From Deltaproteobacteria bacterium (GTDB taxonomy: Bacteria > Myxococcota_A > Polyangia > Polyangiales > Polyangiaceae), in NCBI GenBank assembly GCA_016218915.1, contig JACRCQ010000072.1:1-64000 (forward strand): 64,000 bases of DNA, written 5' to 3'. Positions 21,908 to 52,202 of the stretch are shown one piece after another. Position 1 is the stretch's first letter; every line of letters starts with the position of its first letter. The notes below the pieces were generated by a model. The model was not told the origin of the DNA, did not search any database, and was given only the letters and a program-made list of their open reading frames with translations. The translations under genes and the position numbers were made by a program.

Positions 21908-24562
21908 ATGTCCACCTCGCTGTCCTTCCACGAGCATCCCTACGCCGGCTTTCTGCACACCGTGGAGAAGCCCGCGCGCTACGTGGGCGGGGAGTTCGGC
22001 CAGATCCGCAAGTCGTGGGACCAAGTCCGGGCGCACGTCTGCCTCGCCTTTCCTGACATCTACGACATCGGCATGAGCCACCTGGGCACGCGCATCCTGT
22101 ACAAGGTGCTCAATGCCGAGAGCGACATCCTGTGCGAGCGTGCGTTTGCGCCCTGGCACGACATGGAGAAAGAGCTGCGCGCCCGCAGCCTGCCCATCGT
22201 GTCGCTCGAGAGCGCACGTCCCCTTCGCGAATTCGACGTGGTCGGCATCTCGCTGCAGCACGAGCTGGTGTTCAGCAATGCCCTGACCCTGCTGGATCTC
22301 GGTGGCATCCCACTGCGCGCCAGCGAACGCGCGGAAAGCGATCCGCTGGTGCTTGGGGGAGGCTCGATCGCGACCCACCCTGAGCCGATGGCTCCCTTCT
22401 TCGACGCTTTCGTGGTGGGAGATGGCGAGCAGAAAGCGGTCGAGGTCGCGCGCAGGTGGGCCGAGGATCGGGATGCGGGTCTATCGCGCCAGGCGCGACT
22501 GCGCAGGCTCGCTGCCCTGGGCGGAGTGTACGTTCCCGCGCTCTACTCCACGCGCGCCGATCCCCAGACCGGCAGGATCGTGGTCGATCGTCCGTTGTTC
22601 GACGACGTCCCGTTGCCGGTCCGACGGGCGTTCGTGGCAGACCTCGATTCGTTTCCCTTTCCGGAGCAGTTTCCGGTGGGCGGGCCTGAAGCCGTGTTCG
22701 AGCGGCTCTCGATCGAGATCGCACGCGGGTGCATGCAGGGGTGCCGGTTCTGCCAGGCCGGCATGATCTTCCGGCCGCAGCGCGATCGCGACCCTGCGCG
22801 CCTGGCAGAGCTGATCGGACGCGCTGTGAGCTGGGCGGGGGAAGACGAGGTCGCGCTCACATCGCTGTCGACCGCAGACTATCCGCACGTCGGGGAGCTG
22901 ATCGGAGAGCTCTCGGATCGGCTCGGGCCCTGCAATGTCGCGCTGGGGGTGTCGTCGCTTCGCGCCTATGGTCTCACCGACGAGGTGCTCGATCAGATCA
23001 GGAAGGTGAGGGCAACCGGGCTGACGTTCGCGCCGGAAGCGGGCAGCCAGCGGATGCGCGACCTGATCAACAAGAACATCACAGAAGAGCAGATCTTCGC
23101 GACCGCCGAGCGCGTGCTGACCCGCGGATGGGATCGGCTCAAGTTCTACTTCATGATCGGGTTGCCCACGGAAACCGAGCAGGACGTGCTCGACATCGTG
23201 GAGACCACGGCTCGTGCGCGGGAAGCGGGGAGGCGCGGACGCGGCAAAGGGCGGCCCCCGAAAGTCACGGCGTCGGTATCGACCTTTGCTCCCAAGCCGC
23301 ACACGCCGCTGCAATGGGAGAGGATGCTCGGCCCGCAAGAGGTGATCGGTCGCCAGCACATGCTCAAGGACCGGGCGCGGGCTCGTAACGTGGATCTCAA
23401 GGTCCACCCGATGCACGGCAGCATCCTGGAGGGGCTTCTGTGTCGCGGCGATCGCAGGCTCGCGGACGTGATCGAGACGGCCTGGCGCAACGGGGCGCGC
23501 TTTGATGCCTGGGAGAGCGCCATGCCCTGGGACACCTGGATGGCTGCGGTCCGCGCGTGCGAGGTCGACCTGGATTCCTATCTCGCTGAGCTTCCGATCG
23601 ATTCGACCCTTCCCTGGGCGCACATCGACGTCGGTGTGGCGCACGACTTCCTGTTGAAGGAGCGAGACAAGGCAAGGAAGGGCAAGCTCACGCCGGTGTG
23701 CGGGCGCCCCTACAGCGCGGTCGAGGGGCGGGAGCCGAGCAACGACAAGCTCGTATGCTTCCATTGCGGCGCAGGCTGCGACCTGGAGACGATGGCCGTT
23801 GGCCGAAAGCGCAGCGGCGAGAAGCTGGCAGCGCTTCGGGCGCGCCCCCACGAGCAGGAGAAGGTGGAGCCCCCGCCGCAGATCGAGCCGGTGCGCTACC
23901 GCATCCGTTTCGAGAAGCTGGGCAAGGCTTCGCTGCTGGGCCATCTCGATCTGGTCCGCGAGCTGCCTCGCGTGCTGCGTCGTGCTGGAATGCCTCTCTG
24001 GTACTCGCAGGGATTCCACCCCAAGGCCGTGATGAGCTTCGCTCCGGCGCTTTCGCTCGGTGTGCCGAGCTTTGACGAGTACGTCGACGTGAAGACTTCG
24101 ACCGAGATCGACGTCGTGGACGTGGTGCAGCGGCTCGCGACCCTCAGCCAGGAAGGGTTGCGCTTCTTGGAGATCTCGCGTCTGCAGCCGGGCGCACCTG
24201 CGATCGGCGCAGAGATCGTCGCTGCCCGCTACCTGCTCGGATTGCCTCCAGAGCTGCAGTCGCGCGCGCTCGCGGTGGTGGGGGATCGCAGCTGGGAGCA
24301 GGTGGTCGCCACGCGGACCAAGGGTGATGTTGAACGATCTTTCCCTCTTCGTGAGTACGTCGAGAGCGTCGAGCCGGGGGACGCGAGTGACGTTGAAACG
24401 CTCGCCAGGGCCGGGATCCGCGGCACCTGGGCGCCGGTACGCGTCGTGCTCCGCGTGCTCCCCTCGGGTGTGGCTCGTTTGCAGGAAGTGGCTGATGCCC
24501 TGTGCGGGCAGGCGGAGACCGACTTCCGGGCGGTCCGGATGGAGCTGCGGCTGAAGAGCTAG
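21908..24562 (+). CDS. B12-binding-like radical SAM protein fused to a DUF2344 domain
   Basis: An 884-residue protein starting at ATG 21908. The N-terminal 250 residues resemble the B12-binding-like domain of TIGR03960 proteins. The radical SAM cluster motif CxxxCxxC is at residues 275-282 (GCMQGCRFCQAG). A segment with CFHCGAGC follows near residue 620 and may bind a metal. The last 270 residues match the DUF2344/TIGR03936 family (YRIRFEKLGKASLLGHLDLV, then QGFHPKAVMSFAPALSLG). In many bacteria the two parts are adjacent genes; here they are fused. The family often neighbours RNase E/G and ribosomal genes and has no settled reaction. It is convergent with the CAP protein gene, the stops overlapping by four bases. 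Confidence 0.88.
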   Translation: MSTSLSFHEHPYAGFLHTVEKPARYVGGEFGQIRKSWDQVRAHVCLAFPDIYDIGMSHLGTRILYKVLNAESDILCERAFAPWHDMEKELRARSLPIVSLESARPLREFDVVGISLQHELVFSNALTLLDLGGIPLRASERAESDPLVLGGGSIATHPEPMAPFFDAFVVGDGEQKAVEVARRWAEDRDAGLSRQARLRRLAALGGVYVPALYSTRADPQTGRIVVDRPLFDDVPLPVRRAFVADLDSFPFPEQFPVGGPEAVFERLSIEIARGCMQGCRFCQAGMIFRPQRDRDPARLAELIGRAVSWAGEDEVALTSLSTADYPHVGELIGELSDRLGPCNVALGVSSLRAYGLTDEVLDQIRKVRATGLTFAPEAGSQRMRDLINKNITEEQIFATAERVLTRGWDRLKFYFMIGLPTETEQDVLDIVETTARAREAGRRGRGKGRPPKVTASVSTFAPKPHTPLQWERMLGPQEVIGRQHMLKDRARARNVDLKVHPMHGSILEGLLCRGDRRLADVIETAWRNGARFDAWESAMPWDTWMAAVRACEVDLDSYLAELPIDSTLPWAHIDVGVAHDFLLKERDKARKGKLTPVCGRPYSAVEGREPSNDKLVCFHCGAGCDLETMAVGRKRSGEKLAALRARPHEQEKVEPPPQIEPVRYRIRFEKLGKASLLGHLDLVRELPRVLRRAGMPLWYSQGFHPKAVMSFAPALSLGVPSFDEYVDVKTSTEIDVVDVVQRLATLSQEGLRFLEISRLQPGAPAIGAEIVAARYLLGLPPELQSRALAVVGDRSWEQVVATRTKGDVERSFPLREYVESVEPGDASDVETLARAGIRGTWAPVRVVLRVLPSGVARLQEVADALCGQAETDFRAVRMELRLKS

Positions 24563-43879: not shown

Positions 43880-45442
43880 TCAGCCCGCTCTCATCCGGTC
43901 CTCGAATGCGGTCAACGCTGCCTTGGCACCTTCGCCGATGGCAATGACGATCTGCTTGAAGGGAACGTTGGTGACGTCTCCTGCAGCATAGACGCCCTTG
44001 GCACTCGTCCGGCCGTGGGCGTCCACCAGGATCTCGCCCATGCGGTTCGTCTCGACCACGTCCTTGATGACCGCGCTGTTGGGCACAAGCCCGATCTGGA
44101 CGAATACGCCTGCGAGCGCCACCTCACGCGCTTCGTCCGTCTCGCGGTCGCGATAGCGAATCGACTGGACCCCGTTCGCGTCCCCCACGATCTCCGTCGT
44201 GCGAGCGTTGGTGATCACCGTCACGTTCGGAAGCGAGGACAGCTTCTTGACCAGGACGTCGTCGGCCTTGAGCTTGTCGAGGAACTCCAGGAGCGTGACG
44301 TGCGAGCAGATTCCCGCGAGGTCGATGGCGGCCTCGACGCCGGAGTTGCCGCCGCCCACCACGGCGACCGGGCGCCCCTTGTAGAACGGCCCGTCGCAAT
44401 GCGGGCAGAAAGCAACGCCGCGACCGAGGAACTCCTTTTCGCCCGGAATGCCCAGCTCGCGCCAGCGAGCACCGGTTGCGACGATCAGGCGATCTGCCAG
44501 GACGAGCTCGCCGCCCTTGAGGTGCAGGCGTTTCTGGGTGCCGTCCTCCACGGACTCCACCCGTCGGTGCTCGAGCACCTCCACCGGGTAGCCGCGTACA
44601 TGGCGCTCGAGATCCGCAGCCAGCCTGGCGCCTTCGGTGTAGGTCACGGAAATGAGATTTTCGATGCCGAGCGTTTCCTGAACCTGTCCACCCATGCGCT
44701 CGGTGATCAGCGCGGTCTTGAGGCCCTTTCGGGCGCTGTAGATCGCCGCGGATGCGCCTGCTGGGCCGCCGCCCAGGACCACCACGTCGTACGCCCGTGG
44801 CTCGTCCAGCTTCGTCTCCTCGCCCGCACCACGGGCCTGGCTCGAGCCGAACCTCTCCTCCAGCGCATCCAGGAGCTCCGCCAGGGAAGCGCGTCCCACG
44901 TGAAGGACCTCGTCGCCCGCGTAGACCGTCGGCACGGCCTGGATGCCGAGCCGCTGGACCTCCTCGGCAACCAACGCCCCGTCGATCATCTCATGCCGGA
45001 AGTCGCCATGCATGATCGCCATGAGGTTCAGGGCCTGAACCACGTCAGGGCAGTTCGTGCAGGAGAGTGAAACATAGGTGCGCAGCGCGATCGGGCCTCG
45101 CAGCCTCTTCACGCGCGAGAGCACGGATTCGTCCGGGAGCTTTCCCCGGCCGTCGGCATTCAGAATCGCCAGAACGACCGAGGAGAATTCGTGGCCTCCG
45201 GGCACTCCCCGGAAGTTCACGCCGGTCGGCACGCCGTTCTTGAGCAGGGCGAAGTGCACCTCGCTCGACTCCGGCCCTGTCTCCACCACGCGCAGCCGCG
45301 GGCTGGCAGAGGCGAGCGAGTCGAGCATGTCCCGAAGCTCGCCCTGTCGAGCGTGATGGCTCGGCGAGATGGCAAGCACGTAGTCGTCCTGGAGCTCCTT
45401 GAAAAGTCCTCGAAGCTGCTCGATGAGCTCATTGTCCAACAT
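43880..45442 (-). CDS. ahpF: Alkyl hydroperoxide reductase subunit F
   Basis: A 520-residue flavoprotein. ATG 45442 follows a textbook aggagg site. The N-terminal domain carries the thioredoxin-like CxxC (C128, C131 in SCTNCPDV). The FAD/NADH domains hold VVLGGGPAGASAAIYSARKG (FAD dinucleotide fold), VAVVGGGNSGVEAAIDLAG (NADH fold), and the second redox pair C346/C349 in FCPHCDGPF. The length equals that of E. coli AhpF. It passes electrons from NADH to AhpC for peroxide reduction. It is the third gene of a perR-ahpC-ahpF operon, with 117 bp between ahpC and ahpF. Confidence 0.95.
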   Translation of the reverse strand: MLDNELIEQLRGLFKELQDDYVLAISPSHHARQGELRDMLDSLASASPRLRVVETGPESSEVHFALLKNGVPTGVNFRGVPGGHEFSSVVLAILNADGRGKLPDESVLSRVKRLRGPIALRTYVSLSCTNCPDVVQALNLMAIMHGDFRHEMIDGALVAEEVQRLGIQAVPTVYAGDEVLHVGRASLAELLDALEERFGSSQARGAGEETKLDEPRAYDVVVLGGGPAGASAAIYSARKGLKTALITERMGGQVQETLGIENLISVTYTEGARLAADLERHVRGYPVEVLEHRRVESVEDGTQKRLHLKGGELVLADRLIVATGARWRELGIPGEKEFLGRGVAFCPHCDGPFYKGRPVAVVGGGNSGVEAAIDLAGICSHVTLLEFLDKLKADDVLVKKLSSLPNVTVITNARTTEIVGDANGVQSIRYRDRETDEAREVALAGVFVQIGLVPNSAVIKDVVETNRMGEILVDAHGRTSAKGVYAAGDVTNVPFKQIVIAIGEGAKAALTAFEDRMRAG

Positions 45443-45559
45443 GGTCAGCCTCCTGATGCAACGGCCCGCAGGTGCCCGCGGATGCGCGTGGAGCACCCGA
45501 CTCCGACGAATCGGTGCTCCAGCGCAGGCGGACCTCGGTCCGAGAACGCTACGCGCGAC

Positions 45560-46126
45560 TCAGATCTTGCCTACCAGCTCGAGTCCGGGCTTGAGCGTCG
45601 CAGCGCCCGGCGTCCACTTGGCCGGGCAGACTTCGCCCGGATGTGATGCGACGAACTGGGCAGCCTGCACCTTGCGCAGAAGCTCGCCTGCGTCGCGTCC
45701 GATGCTGTTGTCATGCATCTCCGCAAGCTTGATGCGTCCTTCGGGATCCACGAGGAACGTGCCGCGGTAGGCGAGCCCCTCCTCTTCGATGTACACGCCA
45801 AACGCCTTGGAGAGCTCGCCCGTCGGATCCGCGAGCATCGGATACTTCACCTTCTTGATCGTCTCGGACGCGTCGGCCCACGCCTTGTGCACGAAGTGCG
45901 TGTCCGTGCTCACCGAGTAGATCTCGACGCCCATGGACTTGAACTTCTCGTAGCTGTCCGCCATGTCGCCGAGCTCGGTGGGGCAGATGAACGTGAAGTC
46001 AGCCGGGTAGAAGAAGAACACGGACCACTTGCCCGCGAGATCCTCGCTGGACACGGTCTTGAACTTGCCATTGTGATAGGCCTGGACCTTGAAGGACTGC
46101 AGCTTGGAATTGATGATGGTAGGCAT
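45560..46126 (-). CDS. ahpC: Alkyl hydroperoxide reductase subunit C (peroxiredoxin)
   Basis: A 188-residue 2-Cys peroxiredoxin. The peroxidatic Cys is C48 in FTFICPTE, the resolving Cys is C167 in HPGEVCPAKW, and the catalytic Arg/Thr contexts (YPADFTFICP, PLADPTGELS-like) are in place. The open frame extends far upstream, but the ATG at 46126, with an aggaag site, gives the standard AhpC length. It lies 20 bases after perR and is presumably induced by peroxide with it. It reduces H2O2 and organic hydroperoxides with AhpF as partner. Confidence 0.95.
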   Translation of the reverse strand: MPTIINSKLQSFKVQAYHNGKFKTVSSEDLAGKWSVFFFYPADFTFICPTELGDMADSYEKFKSMGVEIYSVSTDTHFVHKAWADASETIKKVKYPMLADPTGELSKAFGVYIEEEGLAYRGTFLVDPEGRIKLAEMHDNSIGRDAGELLRKVQAAQFVASHPGEVCPAKWTPGAATLKPGLELVGKI

Positions 46127-46146
46127 GAGAAGCTTCCTGTTCTGAA

Positions 46147-46650
46147 CTACGATGGAGTTCGGGTTGTCTTGGTTCGCGCGGCCTTGGATGGGGGCCGCTT
46201 TGCCTTGTCCGTCTTTTCGCAATCGGTGCAGACGCCCTGGACCTCCAGACGGACCTCCTGGATGGTTCCGAGCTTGGTTGCCTCGCCAGGCGGGGCGAAA
46301 GCGGTCGGGTTGTGTTCCATCAGATCCCAGACCCTCTGGCACCGCCTGCAGACGTAGTGATGATGTGGCCGGGATTCCGCGTCGAAGCGCACGCTGTCCC
46401 GACGCCCCAGGGTTCCCACGAGACCCAAGTCGTTGAGCATCCAGAGCGTGCGATAGACCGTGTCGAGCGACACGTTCGGGAATCGTTTCTGCACGCCCCG
46501 AAGGACCATCTCGGCGTCGGGGTGCGCGGAGCTGGCTGCGACGGCCCGGAACACCTCGAGGCGCTGCGGAGTGAGCCGCACGCCCCGGGTTCGACACAGC
46601 TCTTGAAACCGGTCGATGCGCTTCTGGAGCTCGATGGCTTGGACTTGCAT
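46147..46650 (-). CDS. perR: Fur-family regulator, PerR-like
   Basis: A 167-residue protein with the Fur fold: winged helix (LTPQRLEVFRAV, DTVYRTLWMLNDLGLVGTL) followed by a metal-sensing domain with RPHHHYVCRRC. Two Cys pairs (C101/C104 and C141/C144) make the structural zinc site of PerR/Fur proteins. H43 in SAHPDAEMV and the HHH cluster are candidate regulatory Fe/Mn ligands. Its position as first gene of an ahpCF operon favours PerR over Fur, which is the reason for the symbol. The C-terminal 25 residues are an extra Lys/Arg-rich tail. An inverted repeat at 46658-46689, just upstream, is the likely operator. Confidence 0.85.
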   Translation of the reverse strand: MQVQAIELQKRIDRFQELCRTRGVRLTPQRLEVFRAVAASSAHPDAEMVLRGVQKRFPNVSLDTVYRTLWMLNDLGLVGTLGRRDSVRFDAESRPHHHYVCRRCQRVWDLMEHNPTAFAPPGEATKLGTIQEVRLEVQGVCTDCEKTDKAKRPPSKAARTKTTRTPS

Positions 46651-46777: not shown

Positions 46778-48070
46778 TCAGCCGCGACGGTATTCCCACT
46801 CGCTCAGCACATTGAAGACCGCGTCCACGAGCCACGCGGCGCCTCGAAACCCCATCCAGGGAGCCTCGAACAGCGCATGGCGCACATGGCTGGGAAACCC
46901 GAGCTCCAGGAACGGAATCGGCAAGCTCCGGGCCGCATCCCTGACCTTGCCTGACCCGATCACCAGATCGAGCTCCCCGGCCTGCACAAGCTCAGCGAAA
47001 CGGGCCTCGAGCTGCGCAATCGCTGGATCCACCAGCAGCTCGGGTTCCTCCGCATCCTCGCCAGGCGCGCCCAACGCCTCATCTCTCCGCGCATGCAGCG
47101 CCATCAGCACGACCCGCATGCCCAGCTCGCGGAGCATCGCGCTGAGCCCTCGCGCCATTGCCGGCTCCGCTGCGATCGCCACGCAGCGTCCCGCCAGGTG
47201 CCGTCGCACAACCCATTCGAGCCGGGGCACCAGCGCATCCAGCTCGGCCCGGATGAACGCCTCTGCGCGCTCCTGCTGCCCGCAGCGCCCTGCGATCGTC
47301 CGCAACCACGCGCAAGTGCCTTGCAGACCGATGGGGAGGCCCATCTCGATCGCCTCGCAGCCCAGCCTGCCGGCCAGATGCTTCGCTGCCTGGGTGCCGT
47401 ACGGCAGCGCAAGGATGAGCTCGGCCCTGGCAACATCCGACAGTCGTGCATACGAGCTTCCGTCAAGCCAGGTGCAGGCCACATCCAACGAGAGCGCCCC
47501 GAGCATCCGCTTCAGCTCGGCGAGGTTGGCCATCTGATCCTGCTCGAGGCGATCCATCAAGTGTCCGACGATCGCCACGCCCTTGCGCGCTGCGCTCTGT
47601 GGCAGCAGCGGGATCTTGCGAGCCAGCGCCAGCAGCGCGGCCTGGTATCCGTCGAGCCAGTCCTTGGACAGCGGACCCGTCGGGATCACGCACACCGGCA
47701 CCTCGAGCTCTGCTTCCAAGAGCTCTGCCAGCGGCTCGGCATCGACTCCGATCAGCTGGATGGCGCTGGACTGCACCGTGAGCATCACGGAGCAGCGTCG
47801 AGCCGCGACCATCTCGCGCACGCGGCGGTCCAGCTTGCGCTCGGTGCCCATCACGTAGTCGTTGGCGTCGAGGTTCGTGTATTGCACCCGATGCTGGCCG
47901 TCGGCGCGCGTCAGCGTGGACATCAGGTCGTGGTTGACCCCGACGTTGCCTGCCCGGTCCTCGCCGCAGCTGGCGCAATCGATCACGAGGGATGCATCGG
48001 AGATCGCGTTGACGGCGAGGGATACGCCGTCCAGGTAGCTTGGGGTCGTGGGGAGGCTGTGGCCGCTCAC
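46778..48070 (-). CDS. Nitrogenase component-1-like subunit with altered cluster ligands
   Basis: A 430-residue protein of the NifD/NifK/BchN/BchB fold class. The GTG start overlaps the upstream gene stop (GTGA). The N-terminus DGVSLAVNAISDASLVIDCASCG aligns by eye with the GAxxAxxGIxDAxxLxHGPxGC region. ANDYVMGTERKLDRRV aligns with the exDvvfGgekkL helix, and VQSSAIQLIGVDAE with the STCxxxLIGDD region. C35 seems to keep the second ligand. The first (position 11) and third (position 102) ligand positions are Ser. It is about as long as BchN/NflD-type subunits. It probably pairs with the 48067-50121 product and receives electrons from the NifH-like protein. The substrate is unknown. Confidence 0.75.
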   Translation of the reverse strand: MSGHSLPTTPSYLDGVSLAVNAISDASLVIDCASCGEDRAGNVGVNHDLMSTLTRADGQHRVQYTNLDANDYVMGTERKLDRRVREMVAARRCSVMLTVQSSAIQLIGVDAEPLAELLEAELEVPVCVIPTGPLSKDWLDGYQAALLALARKIPLLPQSAARKGVAIVGHLMDRLEQDQMANLAELKRMLGALSLDVACTWLDGSSYARLSDVARAELILALPYGTQAAKHLAGRLGCEAIEMGLPIGLQGTCAWLRTIAGRCGQQERAEAFIRAELDALVPRLEWVVRRHLAGRCVAIAAEPAMARGLSAMLRELGMRVVLMALHARRDEALGAPGEDAEEPELLVDPAIAQLEARFAELVQAGELDLVIGSGKVRDAARSLPIPFLELGFPSHVRHALFEAPWMGFRGAAWLVDAVFNVLSEWEYRRG

Positions 48071-50121
48071 GGTTTCCAGTCCGCCGGTGGAAGGTGTTGG
48101 TGATACCGCTGGAAGAAGGGAGTCTCCGCGAGGTTCAGCAGCCGGCGCAGCGTTCGCAAGCCGCCCTGGAATCCCATCTCGAAGTCAAAGGGAGACACCG
48201 GGACCTTGCCTGCTGTCGTGACGCGCCGATCCTGCGCCACTTCCGTGTACACGAGCTCGAACTTCCCCTTGCGAAGCAGGTCTCCGAGCGCGTCGAGGGC
48301 GTCGACCTTGGTCACGCTGAGCCCGGAATGGGACCGAAGCACCTCGCCCAGCCGCTGGCGTGCATGCTGGAAATCACGCTCGTGGCTGCCGGCGTGCGCA
48401 TGCGTGCGAACCACCATCACCTCCAGCGCAAATCCCATCTCGTCGAGACACCCGAGCCAAGGCACTCCCATCCTCACCATGCAATCGGGCTCTCGGAAGT
48501 GGCAATCGAGCAGGACAACCCCGACGCGATGGCCAGCCGCGCGCCGGGCAAGTGCATCCCAGCGCGCGCGCAGCGACGACATCCTTTGCTGGAAGAACGG
48601 CTCGCCCGGGGGCTCGACCGCGAGGAGGTTTGCCACCTCGAGCAGCCACGCTCGCGTGCCTTCGAGCCCAAAGGGGGCTGCTGCCTCGGCGCCCACCACG
48701 CCGCATTCCGGCTGCGCAAGTTCGAAGGCTTCCCGCACGTGCTTTGCGGGAAAGACGAGGTTGAGATCCGCATCCCGGAATCGACGCATCTCGTCGATGT
48801 CAAAGGTCGGCACCACGCATGCGTTGGTGCGGACGCTCATGCTCGAGAGCAGCTCCTGGAGCTCGGGCAGCGAGCGCGTGCGCGGCGAGCCGAAGCCGAT
48901 CAGGTTCACCGCCTTGCCAGGGGTGCGCGCCTTGGACTGGCTCAGCTCACGGACCAGATCGCGCCAGAACGCTCGCTGATTGTCCGCTTCGTCGAGGCGG
49001 ATCTCCACGTTGATCGTGGGCAGATTCCTGTGCTCGCGCCGCGCCTGCTGCACGACCGCAACCGAGTCGTCGCCGATCAGCCGAGGTACGCAGGAATCGA
49101 TCGCGACCAGGAGCGCGGGCTCATCCTGCTCGATGGTTTCCTGCAGCAGGCTTGCCAGGGCACCTTCCCCGCCGGACATGATCACAGCCTGCTCGCTGAG
49201 GTCGGTCAATCGAAGGCGTCGCAGGAACTCGAGGTTCGGGCGAAGCTCGGGTCGCGTCAGATAGAGCGATTGCGACGGGCCGGTCATGAGCGGGCAGTAG
49301 CTCAGGCACTCGCGATCCGAGTGGGCCACCATGCTGAGCCCCCCGGAGCAGCCTTGCAGAGCGTTCATGAGGCTGATGTCCGCAGGAACCGCATCATGCA
49401 GGAACGGGTTGATGAGCCGCTGTGCGCCCGCATCGCTTCGGGCGGAGCCCGCCGCGTCCTCGATGAAGCGCATCTGGGGATGCATGCTGAGTGCAAGCAC
49501 ATAGCCCACGAAATCGAGGATGGACCGCTCAGCGTCCGACGCCGGCATCCTGGCAGTGCACAGGGCGCACGGGCCGTAGTCGCGCACGACCTCTCCCTTC
49601 GCAGGTGCTCCGCGCGGGACCAGGTGCATCAAGAGCTCGGAGCCGGAAGAGCGAAAGCGAAGCTCGAACGCCCTGTCGCGGTGGGTCGCTTCGGCGAGGA
49701 GGTGATCGGCCCGGCGGGTCTGCCCCACGCAGAGAATCTCACCGCACAGCGACTCCAGCAGCCCAGGGCCGAATCGAACGTCGACCAGCTCCCGATTGCG
49801 CCGGGTCAGCAAGGCAGGCGTATGCTTGTGGAACATCGCAGTCAGCCTCGCCGCGACATGCCGCAGCGCTGCCTTGCCGAGCCTGGGATCGGTCGACGAC
49901 GCACGCTCCACCCACAGGCTTCCGCCGCGGAAGGTGGGCTTGTCCTCGCGCGGCGTGCCCACGTCCCACATCAGGTCGACCTGCTGTCCGGCTCCTGTGA
50001 GGTGCAGGCAGAGCGTGCCGTCCAGCCCAACCGTCGTTCCATCACAACCCCACGGACTGCCGGCAGCGACGAATCGCTCGAGCCAAGGGAAGAAGAAGTC
50101 GGGTTGGTTCGCCTTGATCAA
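48067..50121 (-). CDS. Nitrogenase component-1-like subunit with a long N-terminal extension
   Basis: A 684-residue protein with a TTG start and a gggag site six bases before it. Residues 1-240 are an extra region I do not recognise, with Cys at 26, 38, 126 and 131 and a CALC pair at 185-188. Residues 245-684 are a component-1-like domain: HSDREC (267-272) replaces HGPxGC, RLTDLSEQAVIMSGGEGAL aligns with the exDvifGgeekL helix, and SCVPRLIGDD (343-352) keeps the third cluster Cys (C344). C272 and C344 are candidate ligands, with D248 or C258 as a possible third, as Asp replaces one Cys in BchB. It probably forms a hetero-oligomer with the next gene product. Confidence 0.75.
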   Translation of the reverse strand: MIKANQPDFFFPWLERFVAAGSPWGCDGTTVGLDGTLCLHLTGAGQQVDLMWDVGTPREDKPTFRGGSLWVERASSTDPRLGKAALRHVAARLTAMFHKHTPALLTRRNRELVDVRFGPGLLESLCGEILCVGQTRRADHLLAEATHRDRAFELRFRSSGSELLMHLVPRGAPAKGEVVRDYGPCALCTARMPASDAERSILDFVGYVLALSMHPQMRFIEDAAGSARSDAGAQRLINPFLHDAVPADISLMNALQGCSGGLSMVAHSDRECLSYCPLMTGPSQSLYLTRPELRPNLEFLRRLRLTDLSEQAVIMSGGEGALASLLQETIEQDEPALLVAIDSCVPRLIGDDSVAVVQQARREHRNLPTINVEIRLDEADNQRAFWRDLVRELSQSKARTPGKAVNLIGFGSPRTRSLPELQELLSSMSVRTNACVVPTFDIDEMRRFRDADLNLVFPAKHVREAFELAQPECGVVGAEAAAPFGLEGTRAWLLEVANLLAVEPPGEPFFQQRMSSLRARWDALARRAAGHRVGVVLLDCHFREPDCMVRMGVPWLGCLDEMGFALEVMVVRTHAHAGSHERDFQHARQRLGEVLRSHSGLSVTKVDALDALGDLLRKGKFELVYTEVAQDRRVTTAGKVPVSPFDFEMGFQGGLRTLRRLLNLAETPFFQRYHQHLPPADWKP

Positions 50122-50142
50122 CGCATGCTCCCGGAGCGACGA

Positions 50143-50964
50143 CTACGCCACCATGGCATTGAGCACGAACTGCTCGAACTCGGTATCCTCGAGCGGGCGA
50201 GGGATGCAGCAGTCTTCCTGGGTCGTGGCCTGGATCTCCCCGAACAGAGCCGTGTAGTCGTGTGCGATCGCGCAGTCCGGCGCATGCTCGATCACGGTCC
50301 TGGAATGCCGCTCCGCCTCCTGCACCGCCTCGTGTTGCGGGATGGGGTGGAGCAGACGTGATCCGATTCTCGCGGCAAAGGCTTGGAGGGTTGCGAGCTC
50401 CTTGGACGATCCCCGCAAGTTGGCGACGACCCCTGCCAGGGCAACGCCGTTGCGCGCGTGGGTGACGATCGCCCGGCAGATGTTGTTTGCCGCGTACAGC
50501 GCCATGATCTCCCCAGAGGCCACGACATAGACCTCCCGGGCAAAGCCGCGCCGCAGGGGAGCTGCGAAGCCGCCGCACACGACGTCGCCGAGCACGTCGT
50601 AGACAACGACATCGTATCCGGACTCCAGGACCTTGGCCTCGCCGAGCACCTCGAACATGCGGGTGATTCCCCGACCGGCGCAGCCGACGCCAGGCTCAGG
50701 GCCGCCGGTCTCGACGCAGTCCACGCCCATGCGTCCGTGCATCACCACCTGCTCGCGCGTGAGCGTCTGGGTGCCCGGCACCTGCAGGAGACCCATGACC
50801 GTGCGGACCTGCTCGCGCGCAACCAGCTTGTAGGAGGAATCGTGCTTGGGATCGCAGCCCACCTGCAGCACGCGACGGCCATCCTTCGCGAACAACACGC
50901 TGATGTTCGTTGCGACGGTGGTCTTCCCAATGCCCCCTTTACCGTAGAACGCCAGGGTCCGCAT
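50143..50964 (-). CDS. NifH/BchL-like ATP-dependent reductase iron protein
   Basis: A 273-residue P-loop iron protein. ATG 50964 has aaggag five bases upstream; the frame open to 51033 runs into the promoter. It keeps the Walker A motif GKGGIGKTT (8-16), switch I VGCDPKHDSS (36-44; BchL-like His rather than the NifH Ala), the two cluster Cys C95 (GVGCAGRGI) and C130 (DVVCGGF), and R98. These define a homodimer holding one [4Fe-4S] cluster that gives electrons to a component-1 partner with ATP hydrolysis. Family members include NifH, BchL, BchX, CfbC and MarH. The partners encoded downstream match none of their systems, so the substrate is open. Confidence 0.92.
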   Translation of the reverse strand: MRTLAFYGKGGIGKTTVATNISVLFAKDGRRVLQVGCDPKHDSSYKLVAREQVRTVMGLLQVPGTQTLTREQVVMHGRMGVDCVETGGPEPGVGCAGRGITRMFEVLGEAKVLESGYDVVVYDVLGDVVCGGFAAPLRRGFAREVYVVASGEIMALYAANNICRAIVTHARNGVALAGVVANLRGSSKELATLQAFAARIGSRLLHPIPQHEAVQEAERHSRTVIEHAPDCAIAHDYTALFGEIQATTQEDCCIPRPLEDTEFEQFVLNAMVA

Positions 50965-50980
50965 GCATGCTCCTTGCGGC

Positions 50981-50999
50981 CGTCCCGTGCTTCGGGACG
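50981..50999 (-). promoter_or_regulatory. Stem-loop in the leader of the nitrogenase-like operon
   Basis: CGTCCCG (50981-50987) and CGGGACG (50993-50999) are perfectly complementary around a 5-base loop. In the minus-strand transcript the hairpin lies just before the aaggag ribosome-binding site, where it could stabilise the 5' end or adjust translation. Confidence 0.45.
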
Positions 51000-51005
51000 C
51001 ATGCG

Positions 51006-51033
51006 AGCGTACCGTTGGGCAAACGAGTGTCAA
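51006..51033 (-). promoter_or_regulatory. Candidate sigma-70-type promoter of the nitrogenase-like operon
   Basis: On the minus strand a perfect -35 TTGACA (51033-51028) is followed after 16 bp by TACGCT (51011-51006), a half-conserved -10. Transcription would start near 50999, at the foot of the leader hairpin, about 35 bases before the ATG. The flanking bases 51034-51044 are AT-richer than average. Confidence 0.5.
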
Positions 51034-51581: not shown

Positions 51582-52202
51582 ATGAAGATCGCCTCCTGCC
51601 GCCGCTCCATTCTCCTTCTTCTCGCCATGGCTCCGGCCGGGCTGTGCATTGCCTGCTCCGACAGCTCGGAGGCGCCCGCGAGCAACCCGGTCGATGCCGC
51701 GATCGATTCGTCGGCCGAGGTCGGGACCGACGCCTTGGCCGAAGAGGCGACCAAGGATGCCGGCCCAGAGGCAGCCCCGCAGGATGCTGCGTCCGACGAG
51801 CAGGATGCTGCCGTGGACACCAGCGGCGAAGACCAGGTTGCGCAGGATGGCAACGCGGATGCCCAGGAAGCAGCTCCGGCCCAGCTTGGCGTGGTTTCGG
51901 TCGCCGAGCTCGCCATCGAGCTCCAGAGCAAGGACTTCCTGCTCATCAATGTGCACGTGCCCTATGCAGGGGAGATCCCGCAGACCGACGCGAACCTGAC
52001 CTACGAGAACGTTCCGGCGATCGAGGCCTTTGTCGGCACCAAGCTCGACACCAAGGTCGTGCTCTACTGCTACTCGAACTACATGAGCGGAATCGCCGGC
52101 AATGCGATGGTCAAGGACGGGTATACGAACGTTCGATATCTCGACGGAGGGCTGTCTGCCTGGCAAGGCGCAGGGCAGCCGGTCGAGTGGCACGATCAGT
52201 AG
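51582..52202 (+). CDS. Exported lipoprotein with a rhodanese-like domain
   Basis: A 206-residue lipoprotein: signal peptide ending in LCIAC, an Asp/Glu/Ala-rich acidic linker of about 75 residues, then a rhodanese fold (about 100-205). The segment DFLLINVHVPYAGEIP is the start of the rhodanese core, and VVLYCYSNYMSGIAGNAM is the active-site loop with the catalytic Cys. NVRYLDGGLSAWQGAG is the usual C-terminal signature. It would bind or transfer sulfane sulfur in the periplasm. Its partner is unknown. It is convergent with the kinase gene. Confidence 0.85.
   Translation: MKIASCRRSILLLLAMAPAGLCIACSDSSEAPASNPVDAAIDSSAEVGTDALAEEATKDAGPEAAPQDAASDEQDAAVDTSGEDQVAQDGNADAQEAAPAQLGVVSVAELAIELQSKDFLLINVHVPYAGEIPQTDANLTYENVPAIEAFVGTKLDTKVVLYCYSNYMSGIAGNAMVKDGYTNVRYLDGGLSAWQGAGQPVEWHDQ

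Follow-up and report, generated by a model that had tools for sequence, protein, structure and literature searches.

A nitrogenase-like operon in a Polyangiaceae genome and its possible link to the maturation of His-Xaa-Ser peptides

What would a nitrogenase-like enzyme reduce when no other nif-, chlorophyll- or F430-type gene stands among the annotated neighbours of its operon? The question is raised by three genes on the minus strand, at positions 46778-51033 of a 64-kb stretch of DNA (the window) from a Polyangiaceae genome, assembly GCA_016218915.1, contig JACRCQ010000072.1. A sequence-only reading had described them as an isolated nitrogenase-like operon of no known subclass and unknown substrate, made of a NifH/BchL-like reductase with an intact Walker A motif and both cluster cysteines and, on the same strand, two component-1-like subunits with coupled starts. 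Its account of the genes and of their isolation was borne out. The three open reading frames (ORFs), here called H, alpha and beta, follow each other in the order H, alpha, beta and encode one PF00142 and two PF00148 proteins (Table 1). H keeps its Walker A motif GKGGIGKT, C95 and C130, a gap of 21 nt separates H from alpha, and the alpha and beta genes share 4 nt. The ORF end at 51033 reflects an upstream TTG extension of H, which is not part of H proper, and the TTG start of alpha is backed by its relatives, whose starts fall within about 2 residues. In profile searches of the PDB the 684-aa protein matched NifE and other alpha chains best and the 430-aa protein matched NifE-N, AnfK, NifK and NifN chains, so the order of the operon is that of nifHDK.

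The operon very probably encodes an ATP-driven two-component reductase that works without an iron-molybdenum (FeMo)-type cofactor. For its substrate we favour, over a tetrapyrrole, a ribosomal peptide modified by radical S-adenosylmethionine (radical-SAM) enzymes, a reading to which we give an even chance and no better, because the operon's own locus shows no gene of the His-Xaa-Ser (Hxs) system. The peptide would be of the His-Xaa-Ser kind or a related one. New here are the co-occurrence of the family with HxsB, the Hxs genes at some of its loci and a shared domain; together they narrow the formerly unknown substrate by pointing to peptide maturation. Characterised nitrogenase-like enzymes reduce hard bonds in small molecules, and we know of none that acts on a peptide or protein. 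No nitrogenase-like member of the Hxs system was found in the literature searched, and the matches listed for nitrogenase-like enzymes together with ribosomally synthesized and post-translationally modified peptides (RiPPs) held only unrelated titles; most subscription papers and preprints lay outside both searches.

Residue counts over 65 alpha and 82 beta family sequences, non-identical and picked by score and length, speak to the cofactor. The column of the NifD/NifE cofactor cysteine holds Pro in 42/65 alphas, Glu in 11/65 and Cys in a single one, with a Cys at most 3 columns away in 16/65. The column of the first NifD alpha cysteine has a Cys in 0/65, the window alpha included, and NifK cysteine column 102 is Ser in the window beta and Cys in 0/82 betas. 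The window proteins do not carry the set of cofactor and P-cluster cysteines of nitrogenase (NifHDK), and the operon is probably not nitrogen-fixing. That it is a nitrogenase, or a relative of the nitrogenase-cofactor proteins, still serving N2 fixation is close to refuted: H scores almost equally with the NCBIfam nifH and CfbC models (308.1 and 307.8 bits), but the cofactor cysteine is missing, and the host genome holds no full-length NifH-like or PF00148 gene outside the two H/alpha/beta sets described below. Both scores lie under their cut-offs (394 and 402), as do those of H with BchL (208, cut-off 345) and BchX (170, cut-off 331) and that of beta with BchB (89.5 bits, cut-off 490). None of the three proteins reaches the NCBIfam cut-off for NifH, BchL, BchX, CfbC or the component-1 families, in keeping with the sequence-only reading.

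Dark-operative protochlorophyllide oxidoreductase (DPOR), chlorophyllide oxidoreductase (COR) and CfbCD are likewise without the cofactor cysteine, and the complex may work as they do. The H dimer would pass electrons to an alpha-beta complex holding a [4Fe-4S] cluster that bridges the subunits. Three of the cluster's ligands would be cysteines (alpha C272, alpha C344 and beta C35) and the fourth a residue other than Cys, for which alpha E271 is a candidate. Having no FeMo-type cofactor, the complex would reduce its organic substrate directly, as those three enzymes do. This picture of the cluster, the assembly and the chemistry is predicted from conserved residues. The family shares with DPOR (BchLNB) and COR (BchXYZ) the division into a reductase and an alpha-beta complex and the cysteines at two conserved NifD positions; unlike them it lacks the first alpha cysteine, carries beta C35 and the beta DRxExD signature, whose combination of R174, E176 and D178 occurs in 0/6 Nif/Bch references, and stays under the NCBIfam cut-offs. 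The likeness to CfbCD lies in the CfbC score of H, but that score is under its cut-off, and alpha and beta are separate chains. The loss of the cofactor cysteine in 64/65 alphas also suits a competing explanation, since DPOR, COR and CfbCD act on tetrapyrroles: H-alpha-beta would reduce a double bond in the ring of a macrocycle that resembles sirohydrochlorin or chlorin and that neighbouring radical-SAM enzymes modify, giving a cofactor as yet unknown. A cluster with 1 Asp and 3 Cys, an arrangement comparable to the one proposed here, is named for DPOR in a reference title in PMC11423573.

The operon has relatives. In a sample of 377 Myxococcota genomes alpha finds matches in 33, and the 25 whose match reaches E<=1e-12 are the alpha genomes of this sample. 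A scan of genome contigs with eight beta sequences gave 75 named family loci, mostly from metagenome-assembled genomes (MAGs) whose titles name Myxococcales, Deltaproteobacteria or Elusimicrobia; Bdellovibrio and Spirochaetes are among a few others. With alpha relatives in these 25 genomes and beta relatives in Elusimicrobia and other MAGs, the claim that the operon belongs to no known subclass does not stand. The window alpha is closest to those of G398 (37% identity), G575 (37%) and G289 (34%). G398 (locus L186) has H, alpha and beta as well, the trio for which the sequence-only reading had proposed to search other Myxococcota, with a B12-type radical-SAM gene at a distance of 1.2 kb. Radical-SAM genes are co-located in 45 of the 59 named loci with a called beta. 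The codon-usage caller missed beta in 16/75 named loci and HxsB in 4 of the 20 Hxs loci examined below, so these neighbour counts are lower bounds.

We provisionally equate the family with the group VI paralogs of Meheust et al. (2020), a set of nitrogenase-like H plus component-1 genes that lies outside groups I-V and reportedly includes Myxococcales. The likeness is in H-alpha-beta sets, sometimes several per genome, that are found in MAGs of Elusimicrobia and Myxococcota and in many cases have radical-SAM genes close by. Passages of PMC11257099 report group VI in Elusimicrobiota and, like passages of PMC9391474, describe its members as putative tetrapyrrole genes, a repeated prediction that adds to the case for a tetrapyrrole substrate. 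The neighbours divide on this point. The B12 radical-SAM enzyme of L186 leans to lipid- and BchE-type models and scores 77 bits with BchE (cut-off 481) against 59 with the RiPP model ApyD, both far under cut-off, which tells against a peptide. Those beside alpha in L009 and L042, however, score higher with ApyD or PhpK than with BchE, and the 25 most frequent families, the ones listed for the 119 neighbours scanned of 149 selected, include none for tetrapyrroles. Tetrapyrrole reduction also leaves the tie to HxsB and HXS peptides unexplained, and we consider it unlikely, though a serious contender.

The case for a peptide substrate begins with the distribution of HxsB, called present at E<=1e-60 (the curated cut-offs are 370 bits for HxsB and 50 bits for HxsD). 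In the phylum sample HxsB is found in 24 of 25 alpha genomes and in 102/352 others (p 1.4e-11, which like the p-values below overstates the evidence because the genomes are related and not independent). The sole alpha genome without it, G237, is 68% complete; by elimination, G209 is the alpha genome whose HxsB falls under the curated cut-off. A class sample gave 16/16 alpha genomes, 12 of them new, against 88/301 (p 8e-9), and the combined count is 36/37 alpha-family genomes against the 102/352 others of the phylum sample. The association is seen within family f1 as well (6/6 versus 34/102, p 0.002, the class set being taken to hold all 108 f1 genomes), and the window subclade is HxsB-positive in each of its four genomes. 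By contrast, HxsB occurs in 1/5 genomes with a BchX-type H, one of these assigned by NCBIfam and the rest by tree position, and none of 14 control genomes carries HxsB over its cut-off.

Some family loci also hold Hxs genes themselves. At 8 of the 75 named loci, on 7 contigs (L079 and L105 overlap), HxsB is present in 5, HxsD in 5 and HXS runs, defined as four or more HXS repeats, in 5. One neighbour enzyme that was tested is HxsB at 490 bits, and HxsD-like neighbours score 52.7 bits (over the cut-off), 50.0 (at it) and 32.9 (under it). In G522 the distance from an alpha match to HxsB is 1.5 kb in one case, on the contig that also appears as L088, and 5 kb in another. At six loci (L080:15816, L087:15670, L103:5681, L107:6297, L128:1898 and L050:17) the nitrogenase-like genes have near them ORFs that end in long His-Xaa-Ser runs. 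Eight control stretches held no HXS run, and neither HxsB nor HxsD was found in the three of them in which they were sought. At an assumed density of 1.5 HxsB per 6 Mb, the expected number in 1173 kb is 0.29 (P 1.4e-5).

The third line of evidence is an unnamed domain of about 100 residues that recurs in alpha, in certain radical-SAM enzymes and in small proteins encoded at Hxs loci. Iterated searches with N-terminal pieces of the host genome's second alpha (residues 1-215; 10-118) recovered two groups of radical-SAM enzymes at family loci, the HxsC-like ones, matched in their N-termini, and the B12 type, matched in their C-termini. In hhalign comparisons the alpha core matched the HxsC-like N-termini with a probability of 95% (P 2.6e-8) and the B12 radical-SAM C-termini with 96.7% (P 3.7e-10), and the latter two matched each other with 93% (P 2.8e-7). 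The compared sets were chosen by the search itself, so the HxsC-like versus B12-type pair is the least circular. A confident predicted structure (L077 alpha, residues 21-130; block means of the per-residue confidence score pLDDT 91-98) has a mainly helical fold with four strands and two helices. Foldseek against the PDB gave no convincing relative (best E 0.34), eight sequences (five stand-alone proteins, that of L186 and two alpha N-termini) had no Pfam match at E<=0.1, and seven domain-type sequences drew a single NCBIfam match, at 17.7 bits against a cut-off of 100.

We examined 20 Hxs loci, 12 from alpha-less genomes and 8 from 7 alpha genomes, together with the host genome's own, calling the domain by any of three profiles at E<1e-3. 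A stand-alone domain protein is present at 3/12 loci of the alpha-less genomes (L239, L243 and L247, the last with a further copy at the start of a 396-aa protein), at 1/8 loci of the alpha genomes (L253) and at the host's own locus (164 aa, E 7e-7). Genomes that lack the nitrogenase-like enzyme can thus have the domain at an Hxs locus too. The five stand-alone proteins, which the same profiles had detected, show matches to the alpha core at P 3.7e-6, the B12-type set at P 3.5e-8 and the HxsC-type set at P 1.4e-7. It is possible that the peptide is held by this N-terminal domain of alpha, which has counterparts in the radical-SAM enzymes and the small Hxs-locus proteins. More generally, group-VI-type enzymes may be peptide maturases, in which the Fe-protein and alpha-beta complex would reduce a radical-SAM-modified peptide and be recruited by a pathway-wide docking domain, a tentative proposal that we place a little below an even chance.

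In the window alpha the extension ahead of the PF00148 part would hold two copies, r1 and r2. The AlphaFold2 (AF2) model shows the topology in duplicate, although its confidence there is low (block means of 33-70 for residues 1-240). The comparison of r1 with r2 gave a probability of 66.5 (P 5.4e-5) and a score of 31.5, the top of 60 column-permuted scores being 13.3. Against the alpha core r2 reached 39% (P 3.2e-4, score 27.2, top of 60 permutations 13.7) and r1 22%; against the B12 radical-SAM C-termini r2 reached 69.4 (P 4.3e-5), a comparison that had no permutation control. The 175-aa stand-alone protein of L186 was tried as a window-type copy and rejected: it reached 1.4% with r2, at a score of 17.5 inside the permuted range, and 2.5% with r1, as well as 22% with the core and 33% with the B12-type set.

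Several observations weigh against peptide maturation, for the family and more so for the window operon. HxsB occurs without alpha in the 102/352 phylum genomes already mentioned, and the eight weaker alpha matches of family f23, which were dropped from the 33 and counted among the others, are also 8/8 HxsB-positive. As many as 67/75 family loci show no Hxs gene. The window itself holds no HxsB, no HxsD and no HXS run of at least four, no HXS-repeat peptide accompanies the operon, and the host's HxsB (564 bits) and HxsD (54 bits) lie together on another contig, C52, at a locus where no HXS repeat was found. The window operon differs from the group VI pattern in having no related radical-SAM gene beside it; the one radical-SAM match that the window does contain (21908-24562, Pfam Radical_SAM_N2 plus DUF2344) differs in kind and is 24 kb distant, and we rejected it as a partner, taking it for an unrelated housekeeping type. 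The two tandem domain copies of the window alpha are divergent, a further difference from group VI, and they match the stand-alone Hxs proteins weakly, at 13% and 3%.

Nor do the trees group the window H and alpha clearly with the family. The H tree that the sequence-only reading had proposed was run with 60 rows, and the alpha tree with 76 rows by a quick method; their references include no CfbC, CfbD, Mar, Isr or labelled group VI/IV sequence. In the H tree the six bchX-type rows form one clade and the three nif rows another, and the family H proteins do not form one clade. The window H falls near nifH, in a 20-member set (99/93 support) with its G289 relative, nifH and other Myxococcota proteins, and is thus closer to nifH than most family H proteins are, again unlike group VI. 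The window alpha groups with four Myxococcota sequences (support 89 in the Shimodaira-Hasegawa-like approximate likelihood-ratio test, SH-aLRT) and adjoins the reference clade (82). The alpha family is not one clade either, two changes being needed relative to the references and the f23 set, in part an effect of a single very long row. The trees therefore do not demonstrate a single clade, and what argues for a family is the shared residues, the gene order and the domain content.

Table 1. Features of the nitrogenase-like operon and its products.
Feature	Position in the window	Strand	Description
H	50143..50964	-	NifH-like ATP-dependent reductase, 273 aa; Fer4_NifH PF00142, E 1.5e-87
alpha	48067..50121	-	684 aa, NifD/NifE-type; PF00148 at residues 262-664, E 1.9e-30
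alpha N-terminal extension			~260 aa ahead of the PF00148 part
alpha r1, residues 12-97	49831..50088	-	first divergent domain copy (predicted); limits from AF2 model
alpha r2, residues 119-212	49486..49767	-	second divergent domain copy (predicted); limits from AF2 model
alpha E271-C272	49306..49311	-	invariant, 65/65; C272 aligns with second conserved NifD/NifE Cys
alpha C344	49090..49092	-	65/65; aligns with NifE Cys of CVPxxIGDD motif
beta	46778..48070	-	430 aa, NifK/NifN-type; PF00148 at residues 14-422, E 2.3e-61
beta C35	47966..47968	-	80/82; only Cys kept in most beta sequences
beta D173-R-L-E-Q-D178 signature	47537..47554	-	R174, E176 and D178 in 82/82

The surroundings of the operon bear on another alternative, that it encodes a catabolic or assimilatory reductase of C-S bonds or of other small molecules, like Mar or Isr, and that genome type accounts for the Hxs link. 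The operon stands alone between PerR-AhpC-AhpF genes (43880-46650, same strand, 127 bp downstream) and, on its other flank, a gene for a rhodanese-domain lipoprotein (51582-52202). The PDB entries 9fmg/9d9u are the best single-sequence matches of alpha (E 1e-6) and beta (E 7.8e-18); they are titled only 'Nitrogenase', and we take the chain to be MarD, an identity that is presumed. In the alignments obtained with this chain of the methylthio-alkane reductase MarHDK, its presumed cofactor-ligand cysteine has no Cys opposite it in either alpha or beta from the window. Rhodanese aside, no sulfur gene is found among the annotated neighbours. Mar enzymes use nitrogenase metalloclusters, to go by the title of PMC12552129, whereas all but one of the 65 alphas are without the cofactor cysteine, and a reductase of this type appears improbable. 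PerR-AhpC-AhpF were also considered as functional partners and rejected: the remaining genes called at the loci examined included no PerR or AhpC relative at E<=1e-3 and one weak AhpF match (L113), and the adjacency is therefore taken as chance.

The host genome (9.2 Mb in 81 contigs) has, beyond the window, one more full-length NifH-like gene, on contig C18, and one more alpha/beta pair, on C12, a second set thus split over two contigs (L010:6596-10039 and L009:7348-12036, respectively). Identities between the window set and this set are 32% for alpha, 33% for beta and 49% for H. Five radical-SAM-like genes lie in the 20 kb around the second alpha/beta pair, a B12-type gene adjoining alpha, and two lie beside the second H, one of which scores 303 bits with HxsC4 (cut-off 500). 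The host genome (G000) has 110 radical-SAM matches in all, seemingly many.

Other arrangements were met among the relatives. H and alpha are fused into a 959-aa protein at L042:5361-8240, with a B12 radical-SAM gene bearing the shared domain ahead of them. Two divergently transcribed H/alpha/beta sets lie back to back in each of two genomes of family f27 (L048:5795-14523 and L051:5756-14394). Family f23 (L036-L040; L147-L153, L155 and L156) has a separate nitrogenase-like set, mostly with an alpha-like protein of about 460 aa and with an H clade of its own. Five Myxococcota genomes (L139-L142 and L144) have a BchX-type H, which exceeded the NCBIfam cut-off in the one tested; this suggests that the phylum has bacteriochlorophyll genes.

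In summary, the link between this family and the Hxs system gives an uncharacterised branch of nitrogenase-like enzymes a substrate class that can be tested, and a peptide hypothesis now stands beside the published prediction of a tetrapyrrole. It also offers the Hxs system a possible additional redox catalyst.

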